A DNA stretch of 64,000 nucleotides from Oceanicoccus sagamiensis (lineage in GTDB: Bacteria > Pseudomonadota > Gammaproteobacteria > Pseudomonadales > Dasaniaceae): contig NZ_CP019343.1 of the NCBI RefSeq assembly GCF_002117105.1, positions 3,038,001 through 3,102,000 on the forward strand, written 5' to 3'. Below are positions 31,670-38,305 of this stretch, one piece after another. Made by a program: the position numbers and the translations under genes. Under the pieces are notes generated by a model, which searched no databases, was not told where the DNA came from, and saw nothing but the letters and a program-made list of their open reading frames with translations. How positions within the stretch are numbered: position 1 is the stretch's first letter; each line of letters begins with the position of its first letter.

Positions 31670-32608
31670 ATGCGGGTATTGGTAAAAGGTTTACTGGCTT
31701 TTAGTTTAATGTTTTTTCTGGTGGCTTGTGATGATGACGACGATGATAATGATCGCAGCAGTATGTCTATTGTCGATGTGGCTGCCGAAGCGGGGAGTTT
31801 TACTACTCTGGTGACAGCGCTGCAAGCGACGGGTTTAGATAGTACGCTAGCGGACCCCGAAGGCAATTTTACGGTGTTTGCACCCAGCGATGCAGCCTTT
31901 GAAAAATTAGGTGAAGAAACCATTAATAACCTGCTGGCAGATACAGATACCTTAGCGGATATCTTGCTCTACCATGTGATTGTAGGGGCCACCATTGATT
32001 CAACCGCTGCTATTGAAAGCGCAGGTACAACGGTTGAGATGGCCAACGGCGATAATGTTGCTCTGTCACTTAGCGGCTCTGATTTACTGGTCAATTTCTC
32101 TACCGTAACCGGTCTGGATATTATGGCCGATAACGGCATTATCCATGTGATCGATACCGTGCTGATACCACCCACGGAGAGTGAAGAACCGGTGCTTAAT
32201 ATTGCAGAAACCGCTACTGCGAATGGTAACTTTACCACCTTGTTAACAGCTTTGGCGGTGGCGGGCCTTGACTCTGCTCTTGCCGATGAGTCAGCAACTT
32301 ATACCGTATTTGCCCCCACCGATGCGGCTTTTGCTGCACTGCCTGATGGCACCATTGCAGCCCTGTTAGCGGATATCGATGCTTTGACCGCTGTACTGGC
32401 ACGCCATGTTATCAGTGGTGCGGCCGTGGATTCAGTCACCGCACTCTCGCTGAACAATACTGAGGTGGAAACCTTATTGGGTGAGAATGTTAGCCTGCAA
32501 ATTATCGATGGGGCGCTAATGGTTAATAACGCCAAAATCGAGATCTTTGATATTGTGACTACCAACGGCATTATTCATGTGATTGATGCGGTAATCTCTG
32601 AGTCATAA
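31670..32608 (+). CDS. Lipoprotein with two fasciclin (FAS1) domains
   Basis: 312 residues. Lipobox LVAC (Cys20) is followed directly by six Asp residues. Two FAS1 domains follow (about 35-165 and 176-310), each with FTTL(V/L)TAL, TVFAP(S/T)DAAF, the YH/RH motif (LLYHVIVG, LARHVISG) and NGIIHVID. FAS1 domains mediate weak adhesion to other proteins or matrix. Asp right after the lipidated Cys is an inner-membrane retention signal in E. coli, so it may face the periplasm from the inner membrane, though rules differ between species. A terminator follows at once. Confidence 0.9.
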   Translation: MRVLVKGLLAFSLMFFLVACDDDDDDNDRSSMSIVDVAAEAGSFTTLVTALQATGLDSTLADPEGNFTVFAPSDAAFEKLGEETINNLLADTDTLADILLYHVIVGATIDSTAAIESAGTTVEMANGDNVALSLSGSDLLVNFSTVTGLDIMADNGIIHVIDTVLIPPTESEEPVLNIAETATANGNFTTLLTALAVAGLDSALADESATYTVFAPTDAAFAALPDGTIAALLADIDALTAVLARHVISGAAVDSVTALSLNNTEVETLLGENVSLQIIDGALMVNNAKIEIFDIVTTNGIIHVIDAVISES

Positions 32609-35842: not shown

Positions 35843-35858
35843 AACTATAAGAAAACAT

Positions 35859-35881
35859 CGCCAATATAGCTTATATTGGCG
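35859..35881. terminator. Hairpin between convergent genes
   Basis: CGCCAATATA pairs perfectly with TATATTGGCG around GCT (35859-35881). It lies between the + propeller and - sortase-substrate genes. There is only a weak T-tract on either strand, so it may be a terminator or an mRNA 3'-end stabiliser. Confidence 0.55.
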
Positions 35882-35893
35882 ACGTTAAAGGAT

Positions 35894-36454
35894 TTACTGG
35901 CGACGGCGACGATAAGCCAGTGCACCGGCAACACTCACAAACAGACCACCCATAATACCAATCAGTGGTAACTCACTGGCAGTGGCTGGCATTGCTAATG
36001 TTTCAATTGCATAGCTTTCTTCTTCTTCAATCTGGTGAATTTCCCAGCGGTCGCCGGGCAGATAAATATTCAGGTTTTGCCCTTTGCTTAATTCATTGAT
36101 GCGGTAGCTTTTGCCCTGAATTTTAGCGCGGAACTCAGGCTTTACCCTGATTGAGTAACGCTCACTCTTGCTGCCGTCCTCATGCACAAACTTAAAGTTA
36201 ACATTGCGGCCACTGACTCTGGTTAGCTCAAGTTCAACCAGTGCATATTTGGTCCCTTTGCTTTCCACAACGTCCAAACAGGATTTTGTAATGTCGGGAT
36301 ACTTTTCAATCATTTCAGGCGCAAAATCAATATCCTCACAGGACAGGCCAGCCACTTCCTCCATATTGTGGGCAGCGGCCATAGCTGCTGAATGAAATAA
36401 AAATCCTGAAAGTAGCATTAGCGTAATGCCAAAGGTCTTTTTAAATTGTGTCAT
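35894..36454 (-). CDS. Sortase substrate with LPxTG-like anchor
   Basis: 186 residues. A signal peptide (to about Ala28) precedes a mature domain I cannot assign (two Cys at 39 and 59, basic/acidic mix). The C-terminus is a cell-wall-sorting signal: MPATAS (155-160) and LPLIG (162-166), a hydrophobic helix (about 164-180) and YRRRRQ. This matches the LPATAS-type anchors of proteobacterial sortase substrates, with Met in place of Leu. GGAG lies eight bases before the ATG. It is 14 bases downstream of the sortase gene in the same operon and is almost certainly its substrate. What it does on the surface is unknown. Confidence 0.82.
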   Translation of the reverse strand: MTQFKKTFGITLMLLSGFLFHSAAMAAAHNMEEVAGLSCEDIDFAPEMIEKYPDITKSCLDVVESKGTKYALVELELTRVSGRNVNFKFVHEDGSKSERYSIRVKPEFRAKIQGKSYRINELSKGQNLNIYLPGDRWEIHQIEEEESYAIETLAMPATASELPLIGIMGGLFVSVAGALAYRRRRQ

Positions 36455-36468
36455 GTCATTATCTCCAG

Positions 36469-37098
36469 TTAATTGACAAGTTCACCGTCAAGAGATGCCT
36501 TGACGATATAGCGTTGCGGGGCATGCCCGACAAAATAAAAGGGGTAGCAAGTCACCAGTGTGATACTGGTGTCATCGGTATCTCTAAGCACGTCGACATT
36601 GTCGGGCTCGGTAATAAATGTTTGATCGATCCGATAGCGAGAAATACCGCTATAGGTTTTTAAGTGAATATAGTCACCGGCTTTGACATCTTTTAAGGCG
36701 CGAAAGTAACCGTCTCTATGCCCGGCGATACCAAAGTTTCCTGCTTCGTCGGGTAGGGCAGTGCCAGCAATGCGCGCTACACCACGGTCCATATTTAAAT
36801 CGCTGGCGCCATTATAAATAGGTACATCCAGTTTAATATTGGGGATGGATAGAACAGCCAGTACCTCGGAGGCTTGTTGCTTAAGGCTGGCATGATAGGC
36901 GTCAACCCGCGAGGGTGCCCAGTCTTTAAAGCTGGGTTGAGAGCCTGCGGCTGAGCTTTCAAAAGAGTCGATATCTTGTTGGCGTTGAATTTCACTGCAG
37001 CCAGTTTGCCCAAAGAAAATAAGCAACAAGGTTATACCGAGTAACCAGCTAAAGGCTTCGGTTACAGCAAGTACTTTCAGATTCCAGTACCTTGTCAT
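36469..37098 (-). CDS. Class D-like sortase of a Gram-negative bacterium
   Basis: 209 residues with one N-terminal membrane helix (about 12-30) and the sortase domain (about 80-205). The catalytic triad is complete: His127 (IAGHRDGYFRAL), Cys184 (TLVTCYPFYFVG) and Arg196 (APQRYIV). The TLVTCYPF and DEAGNFGIAGH patterns fit the class D family that includes proteobacterial enzymes. Sortases cut an LPxTG-like motif and join the substrate to an amine acceptor. In Gram-negatives the acceptor is poorly known. It heads an operon with its probable substrate; GGA lies about nine bases upstream of the start. Confidence 0.9.
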   Translation of the reverse strand: MTRYWNLKVLAVTEAFSWLLGITLLLIFFGQTGCSEIQRQQDIDSFESSAAGSQPSFKDWAPSRVDAYHASLKQQASEVLAVLSIPNIKLDVPIYNGASDLNMDRGVARIAGTALPDEAGNFGIAGHRDGYFRALKDVKAGDYIHLKTYSGISRYRIDQTFITEPDNVDVLRDTDDTSITLVTCYPFYFVGHAPQRYIVKASLDGELVN

Positions 37099-37423
37099 TA
37101 GCGTTCCTGTTATTTATTCTCGTTGCAGGAGGATAGGGATAAGTGGTTTTAGGTGTTTTTGTTTTATTTATTTTGATATTTAAAAGATATTTTTAACTTT
37201 ACATTCTTATATAGCCTTGTCAATTATCATGCGCTTTTTTAACTATATTGGCTAAATAGTTTGGTACTAATTTCGAATTGCTATTACAAGAAATGGCTTT
37301 ATAACAGGTTTTCTTAGGTTGATGCTTTTGACTGAGCTGTAAATTAATTTTCTCTTCGCTACTGTCTAAAGCCAGTCCGGTGAGTTTGGCGGCAGAGAAT
37401 GTGTGTAGCTAATATCGTCAGCC
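37099..37423. other. AT-rich intergenic region
   Basis: 325 bases between the sortase start and the end of the solute-binding gene. No gene is supported. It contains the candidate sortase promoter and several A/T-runs. No clear terminator was seen for the pqi operon that ends at 37424. Confidence 0.5.
37196..37223 (-). promoter_or_regulatory. Candidate sigma-70 promoter for the sortase operon
   Basis: Reading the minus strand, TTGACA (37218-37223) is followed after 16 bases by TAAAGT (37196-37201), about 100 bases before the sortase start in AT-rich DNA. The -35 is a perfect match, the -10 only partial. Confidence 0.4.
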
Positions 37424-38305
37424 TTAATGACAGCGGATAATCCCCGGTAAATTCGTTGGCCGACTAAGGTTATGCTGTTCTTTACGCCAGTCCTCTAAGC
37501 CATAGCGGCGCAGGATAAAGTCTAATGCCCCGGTTTTTCTTAGCTCCAATAGCCGATGGTTTTGTATCTTGCAGATCTCTTGCCAGTGTTTGGAGTGCGG
37601 TGATAAAGCCAGCCACATAGCATAGGGATCTTCCAGTTGGCCCGCTTCCCGGGTTTTGGCCAGGTTATGGATGGTGCTGGTAAATTTAATCACTTCACTA
37701 TTATCCAGTACCGCGTCAATCTCATGATTAAATAATTTTTGCAGATTGCGCAGGGTGGTATTGACACTGTTTTCTGTGCCAATGGCCTGAAGTTGCTCAG
37801 TGTTTTGATATTTCTCTTTATAGGTTTTAAGGCTTTTATATTCATAGCCTTTCACCACACCTAGCCTAACGGCCGCTAAAGATTCCGGTTGTTTAAAAAA
37901 CCACTGACTATCTTCCCGGGTCACAAAGATATCAGTACCCACACCGATTTCCTGGCTGGGATAAATCAGTTGCGGCGCATCCAATGGCAGGGTGCCGATA
38001 ATACCATCCAGTTCGCCACGGCTTGCCCTGACAATAGACTCCATATAGGTCATCATTTCTATTTTAATATGATAAGCGGAGTCGCGAAAAATACTGTCCA
38101 ATAAATCGATCATATAGCCACGTCTTGCCAATTTGTCATGGGCAGGGTCGCAAATATAGGGGCACCAGTTAGCGGTACCAAAAATCAGGGTGGTTTTTTT
38201 TGTTGGGGGTGTTTCGCTTTGCCCGAGGGCATGGCTTGAAATAATAATGAGAAGCGCTATCCATAGACCTAAAGTCTTAATGCCTTTGAGTAGTTGGCTT
38301 CTCAT
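37424..38305 (-). CDS. Periplasmic solute-binding protein (family 3-like)
   Basis: 293 residues. A signal peptide (to about Gly28) precedes a two-lobe amino-acid-binding fold: LIFGTANWCPYICDP at the start, GYMIDLLDSIF, GELDGIIGT, SQEIGVGTDIFV, LGVVKGYEYKS and HEIDAVLDNSEV. No permease or ATPase gene accompanies it, so it may act as a sensor or orphan binding protein. Two cysteines in NWCPYICDP are unusual and could form a disulfide. It lies 17 bases after pqiC on the same strand and may be cotranscribed. Ligand unknown. Confidence 0.78.
   Translation of the reverse strand: MRSQLLKGIKTLGLWIALLIIISSHALGQSETPPTKKTTLIFGTANWCPYICDPAHDKLARRGYMIDLLDSIFRDSAYHIKIEMMTYMESIVRASRGELDGIIGTLPLDAPQLIYPSQEIGVGTDIFVTREDSQWFFKQPESLAAVRLGVVKGYEYKSLKTYKEKYQNTEQLQAIGTENSVNTTLRNLQKLFNHEIDAVLDNSEVIKFTSTIHNLAKTREAGQLEDPYAMWLALSPHSKHWQEICKIQNHRLLELRKTGALDFILRRYGLEDWRKEQHNLSRPTNLPGIIRCH

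Follow-up and report, generated by a model that had tools for sequence, protein, structure and literature searches.

Dedicated pairs of a sortase and its substrate are already known from Gram-negative bacteria, where they belong to class GN (PMC3237569), and from Gram-positive bacteria, where class D enzymes share an operon with their substrates. In Bacillus anthracis the class D sortase SrtC is linked to sporulation and serves two substrates, BasI and BasH; sortase and substrate lie in one operon and the meso-diaminopimelate (m-Dpm) wall is the likely acceptor (PMC3297441, PMC3208642). SrtC is reported to cut the motif LPNTA between the threonine and the alanine, with the m-Dpm of the wall as the nucleophile (PMC3297441). 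The class D sortase of Clostridium perfringens is found in an operon with one motif-bearing anchor protein and prefers LPQTGS (PMC4498605). Class GN sortases (TIGR03784) are each dedicated to one adjacent target (TIGR03788; PMC3237569), which is a large, VWA-type protein with a PxTAT tail. The role of Gram-negative sortases is described as unknown in a paper on class GN (PMC10581121). GlyGly-CTERM is another tripartite C-terminal signal of Gram-negative bacteria, and in single-target genomes its gene adjoins that of rhombosortase, but this enzyme is an unrelated rhomboid protease and the motif is a different one (PMC3237569).

The window analyzed here, a stretch of 64,000 nucleotides from Oceanicoccus sagamiensis, contains a sortase gene followed by a small substrate gene, both on the minus strand, as are all features of the pair described below. 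The pair resembles that of B. anthracis, which provides the best match among solved structures (2ln7), in its operon-like linkage and in the T-A step of its motif. It differs from the SrtC system in that the host is Gram-negative, the context is not that of a spore, and there is a single substrate of another, OB-like family. The C. perfringens enzyme (4d70) is the second-best solved match, but it, too, is Gram-positive, and the tails considered here are mostly [LM]PxTAS. With class GN the pair shares a Gram-negative host, one adjacent target and a PxTA-like tail; the tail, however, is PxTAS and not PxTAT, and the class GN enzymes are about 30% identical to the window enzyme and form a separate branch of the sortases. 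In the initial annotation the pair had looked like the most distinctive two-gene system of the window. The arrangement is not without precedent: a TIGR03784-type Gram-negative sortase with one adjacent target had already been described (PMC3237569). What is new here, as far as could be found, is the combination, in a diderm, of a class D-like sortase and an OB-like substrate. A search of the open-licence literature, a scope that leaves subscription journals mostly outside, turned up no account of such class D-type pairs from Proteobacteria or Acidobacteria. The preferred reading, to which we assign a probability of about 60%, is that the two genes constitute a periplasmic pathway with one substrate, which would be cleaved after T158 and transferred to the amine of m-Dpm, resulting in a wall-bound barrel.

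The sortase gene (36469-37098) codes for 209 amino acids. Its product belongs to the sortase superfamily, scoring 101.9 bits with PF04203 against a gathering cut-off of 26.6. A membrane-spanning stretch is predicted near the N-terminus, at about residues 9-34 (36997-37074; the hydropathy maximum, 2.08, is at residue 9), and a similar hydrophobic stretch is present in 68 of 80 related sortases. The window enzyme was aligned with those of the 80 related loci. The catalytic His127 (codon 36718-36720) and Arg196 (36511-36513) are identical in 81 of the 81 sequences, and so is Cys184 (36547-36549), the conservation of which is partly built in because the peptide VTCYPFYF was among the six seeds with which these loci were retrieved. 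By these residues the sortase appears to be intact, and the inactive enzyme that the initial annotation had considered finds no support in them. A promoter-like site upstream of the gene (37196-37223) agrees with the consensus at 10 of 12 positions, but it is weak, as five such sites were found and 2.9 are expected by chance.

The conserved residues also bear on the possibility that the sortase is a membrane-release protease. In such a case the enzyme would cut the tail, water would resolve the thioester, and the barrel would be freed into the periplasm. Hydrolysis is indeed a textbook side reaction of sortases. However, not only the His-Cys-Arg triad, with the caveat just given for the cysteine, but also the class D motif region is kept in the 81 sequences, and a plain protease or a protein without a tail would be a simpler route to release. 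This explanation is considered unlikely, and transfer of the substrate to the wall is preferred.

The class of the enzyme was examined with curated models, solved structures and a tree. The best NCBIfam model is NF058671 (SrtD), with 137.1 bits and a cut-off of 140; the class D model NF033746 gives 125.8 bits, under its cut-off of 165. Among six other D-like members that were scanned, two pass NF058671 (L030 and L068, with 141.4 and 141.6 bits) and none passes NF033746. When solved structures were compared with the sortase profile, 2ln7 was first (E = 1.4e-32) and 4d70 second (7.6e-24), followed by class C enzymes. Both leading structures are named sortase D in PMC4498605. Because the scores are under the curated cut-offs, whereas the best solved relatives are of class D, the enzyme is called class D-like and not class D.

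It might be thought that the pair is simply another instance of the described class GN sortase with its target, since the host is Gram-negative, there is one adjacent target and class GN-like enzymes are common in the order. The window sortase, however, scores 82.2 bits with TIGR03784, for which the cut-off is 158.25, whereas three class GN neighbors score 203.0-219.8. A 96-row tree separates seven class GN enzymes from 89 D-like ones, including that of the window, with support of 100/100. Furthermore, the substrate has no match to TIGR03788, VWA or VIT. (The target of a class GN neighbor reaches 483.2 bits with TIGR03788, below the cut-off of 551.65 because its reading frame is cut.) Model score, controls and tree branch all contradict class GN membership, which retains hardly any probability. 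Within the same tree, which was calculated without Gram-positive rows, the window enzyme groups with Halieaceae and related gammaproteobacteria (24 rows, support 100/86).

The substrate gene (35894-36454) begins 14 bases downstream of the sortase gene and codes for 186 amino acids; the coordinates of both genes, as initially annotated, were verified. Residues 1-26, approximately, are a probable signal peptide (36377-36454), recognized by eye, with a hydropathy of 1.63 from residue 8. The C-terminus reads MPATASELPLIGIMGGLFVSVAGALAYRRRRQ and carries all three parts of an LPXTG-type sorting signal. These are the motif MPATAS (residues 155-160; 35975-35992), a hydrophobic helix (residues 162-181; 35912-35971) and the basic tail RRRR (residues 182-185; 35900-35911). 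The helix extends over residues 162-185 in the predicted model, and the best 19-residue hydropathy of the tail, 2.04, belongs to a stretch that begins at residue 162. The anchor had been initially annotated as MPATAS...LPLIG. Motif, helix and arginines are all present, but LPLIG is the start of the helix and the sorting motif is MPATAS, in which a cut between T158 and A159 is predicted from the class D precedent. A terminator-like hairpin of 15 pairs lies 3' of the gene (35854-35886); it is the longest of four such sites in the region scanned, against 1.8 expected.

General anchor models recognize this tail at the margin: TIGR01167 (LPXTG anchor) gives 16.7 bits with a cut-off of 15.9, and Pfam Gram_pos_anchor gives 14.6, under its cut-off of 20. 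Profiles of the family place the substrate well ahead of all other frames. The window was read as 1098 six-frame stretches; a tail profile from which the window tail had been left out gave the substrate frame E = 9.7e-13 and the next best 0.21, and a mature-domain profile that likewise omitted the window row gave the substrate frame 9e-35. The pattern [LM]PxT[AGS][SGT] is present in 69 of 69 tails, 68 from the related loci plus that of the window. The first residue of the motif is L (47 tails) or M (22); the threonine is followed by A (55), G (13) or S (one), and the next residue is S (56), G (12) or T (one). The ratio dN/dS is 0.06-0.20 across six close pairs of substrates (dS is saturated in one), which indicates purifying selection.

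The mature domain had been called unknown in the initial annotation, and neither this protein nor the related substrates that were scanned have a Pfam or NCBIfam family over the cut-off. The AlphaFold2 model of the substrate has a mean pLDDT of 80.9, mostly 88-97 per block over residues 41-140, and includes the C-terminal helix. OB-type folds top the list of structural matches, although the best Z score, 5.1 over 60 residues (aIF5A), is middling. A Foldseek search of solved structures with the models of the window substrate and of an Acidobacteriota substrate gave nothing at E <= 0.001. The mature domain is predicted by modeling to be a small OB-like β-barrel at about residues 61-141 (36032-36274). 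Cys39 (36338-36340) and Cys59 (36278-36280) are invariant in 30 of 30 gammaproteobacterial-type substrates and probably form a disulphide. P156, T158, G169 and R183 are invariant in the same set.

The partner proteins of Acidobacteriota contain two repeats, which match each other with a profile probability of 99.4%. The repeats match the window mature domain, with the tail excluded, at 96-97%, whereas five column-shuffled controls gave 0.2-0.7%. As a direct profile on the window, the first repeat finds the substrate weakly (E = 0.011), yet at the top of all frames. The model of the Acidobacteriota partner is less certain (pLDDT 75.8, pTM 0.37) and shows tandem β domains, the best structural matches of which are domains of the MalK, ModE and EF-P kinds. 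Residues 199-224, between the repeats and the tail, are modeled with low confidence and are proline-rich in the alignment. As a guess, the barrel could be a wall-bound envelope spacer or a ligand-binding protein.

Tandem β domains would also fit a substrate that polymerizes on itself in the manner of a pilin, with the sortase as polymerase, and class C (pilin) sortase models do match the window sortase at 85.9 bits. The class C score is, however, well under its cut-off of 160, a second pilin gene is absent from beside the pair, and the 30 substrates have no invariant lysine in the mature domain, where the richest column is 53% Lys. Pilin-like polymerization was rejected for want of this lysine and is regarded as very improbable; attachment of single barrels to the wall is preferred.

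Related loci were collected by a scan with the six seed peptides, and the best 80 of 178 were kept. They come from Gammaproteobacteria and Acidobacteriota, and from single bins that carry the labels Betaproteobacteria, Rhodospirillaceae, Myxococcaceae and Gemmatimonadales; faulty binning may account for some of these labels. Sortases that are very similar or group together bear different phylum labels at L054 and L062 (Thermoanaerobaculia and Gemmatimonadales) and at L026 and L031 (Acidobacteria and Betaproteobacteria), because of either binning errors or transfer. In 67 of the 80 loci the sortase adjoins, on the same strand, a tail protein recognized by [LM]PxT[AGS][GSTA], a hydrophobic stretch and a basic end; this protein is downstream of the sortase in 61 cases and upstream in six. 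L036 is counted as downstream although it is listed as upstream, its mechanical ORF start preceding the sortase. Thirteen loci are without an adjacent tail; the contigs of L049, L061 and L078 end less than 650 bases past the sortase, and the tail gene of L048 is about 4.9 kb away. One sortase with two tandem tail proteins alongside was observed at L059 (6656-7853). The large recurrent clusters of neighboring genes are long chance reading frames or flanks shared by close, Halieaceae-like loci. Some Acidobacteriota loci contain histidine kinases or response regulators at varying distances. No test supported a part for DUF5666 or for two-component systems.

Sortase and tail were then compared over whole genomes of the order. 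A sortase match at E <= 1e-5 is present in 82 of 390 genomes. The D-like type is found in 16 of them, including the window genome (E <= 3.8e-30, the next match being 7.6e-16), and the further 66 contain lower-scoring, class GN-like matches. All 16 genomes with the D-like type have a matching tail, the 15 others at E <= 0.01; 14 of these have one tail each, and G223 has two tails along with two D-like sortases. The two genes are neighbors in 14 of the 15; the exception is G012, in which about 23 kb of a single contig separates sortase and tail. In G184 the aligned stretch of the sortase match contains a TGA, and the corresponding locus (L099) has an open frame of 227 amino acids through the Cys motif. 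For comparison, 40 genomes that lack the D-like type were chosen, of which 20 have class GN-like matches and the others are the first 20 listed without any sortase match. One of them has a tail, at a borderline E of 0.0098, about 320 bases from a class GN-type sortase. The contrast of 16 out of 16 with one out of 40 indicates that the tail and the D-like sortase travel together, although the tail search of the 15 genomes is partly circular because the source genomes of some profile tails may be among them.

Beyond the order the pairing is looser. Among 24 genomes of chosen loci, 21 have one to three tails and three have none at E <= 0.001. A sortase match at E <= 1e-20, counted by E value whatever the sortase type, is present in 32 of 199 Acidobacteriota genomes; 26 of these have one to four tails (two to four in seven) and six have none, so that one-to-one pairing is not general in this phylum. 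Four sortase matches stand against three tails in G605, and one sortase match against four tails in G609. These two genomes possibly represent a one-to-many version of the system.

The host genome (4.47 Mb, one contig) contains one sortase, one substrate homolog and one tail at E <= 10, as found with a profile of 24 tails that included the tail of the window. The pair is therefore self-contained in this genome, as had been proposed, and the suggested search for other substrates found no further tail at that threshold. LptD is present in the genome, which identifies the host as Gram-negative, and a pqiC gene is located near the pair. LptD was matched as two overlapping pieces in different frames (2035821-2036950 of the contig, minus strand). 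This protein is normally essential, and the split match points to either a frameshift or an error of sequencing. A gene located between the sortase gene and pqiC (37424-38305, minus strand) is weakly like solute-binding family 3 (SBP_bac_3), under the cut-off. It has relatives in three of nine other genomes of the family, with no tie to the sortase pair seen; one relative (L154, in G001) has the class GN sortase of that genome close by. Elsewhere in the window, 31670-32608 (plus strand) codes for a secreted-looking protein with two fasciclin domains. Recent acquisition of the pair as foreign DNA was rejected on composition, the G+C content being 0.463 compared to 0.482 +/- 0.022 in 1.2-kb windows. 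Six of the nine other family genomes have a sortase match, in each case about 30% identical to the window enzyme, and the two checked by model are class GN. In this family the D-like type is found in the window genome alone, where it is the sole sortase type. A swap of sortase systems in the host family is possible.

Gram-negative bacteria make lipid II and m-Dpm peptidoglycan, the wall lying in the periplasm beneath the outer membrane. In the proposed pathway, the signal peptide would direct export of the substrate, and the C-terminal helix and the RRRR stop would keep it in the inner membrane. The sortase would be anchored there too, its active site facing the periplasm, and would cut MPATAS between T158 and A159, forming a thioester on C184 with the assistance of H127 and R196. 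The substrate would then be passed to the side-chain amine of m-Dpm in lipid II or nascent peptidoglycan. The product would be an OB-like barrel bound covalently to the wall by its C-terminus, under the outer membrane. SrtC genes of this kind are reported only from spore-formers (PMC3297441). The bacteria with D-like pairs are not known to be spore-formers, which counts against the explanation. The acceptor m-Dpm is proposed chiefly by analogy with B. anthracis SrtC, the nearest characterized relative, which is reported to use it. The initial annotation had left the acceptor in doubt because of the Gram-negative host; given the m-Dpm wall of such bacteria and a class D sortase that uses m-Dpm with the motif LPNTA (PMC3297441), the doubt was overstated.

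Weak support for a wall acceptor comes from peptidoglycan enzymes beside some sortases that have no adjacent tail. In the Holophagae-type Acidobacteriota, L,D-transpeptidases follow the D-like sortase at L039 and L047, as identified by Pfam, and at L055, as identified by motif. Being near-identical relatives, the three loci amount to a single case. At L080 an S13 carboxypeptidase is beside the sortase. The same cleavage could also serve another acceptor, namely an amine of an outer-membrane protein, a lipid or LPS, and the unrelated type IX system is an example of Gram-negative surface transpeptidation onto acceptors other than peptidoglycan. Across the 80 loci, however, no third gene recurs beside the pair in the manner of the tail protein, and m-Dpm is the reported nucleophile among the closest solved relatives, which are class D (PMC3297441). 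A non-wall acceptor is judged improbable, about as much so as release by hydrolysis, and m-Dpm is retained as the probable acceptor.

Class D-like sortases of diderms were found here in Pseudomonadota and Acidobacteriota. It may be, though this is put forward tentatively and with less than even confidence, that they represent a widespread and apparently undescribed route, distinct from class GN, by which OB-like barrels are tethered to the periplasmic peptidoglycan. Braun's lipoprotein is joined to peptidoglycan by an L,D-transpeptidase, and the proposed route, if true, would be a sortase-made counterpart of that linkage. The substrate family is absent from the Pfam and NCBIfam models that were scanned, and the present alignments could yield a family model. 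The window pair is close to the simplest test case, comprising one enzyme and one small substrate with a motif near that of a Gram-positive enzyme of known acceptor, and the pair also occurs in relatives that can be cultured, among them Parahaliea and Halioglobus. If m-Dpm is the acceptor, diderms would own a sortase route that works from the side of the inner membrane to attach proteins to the wall.
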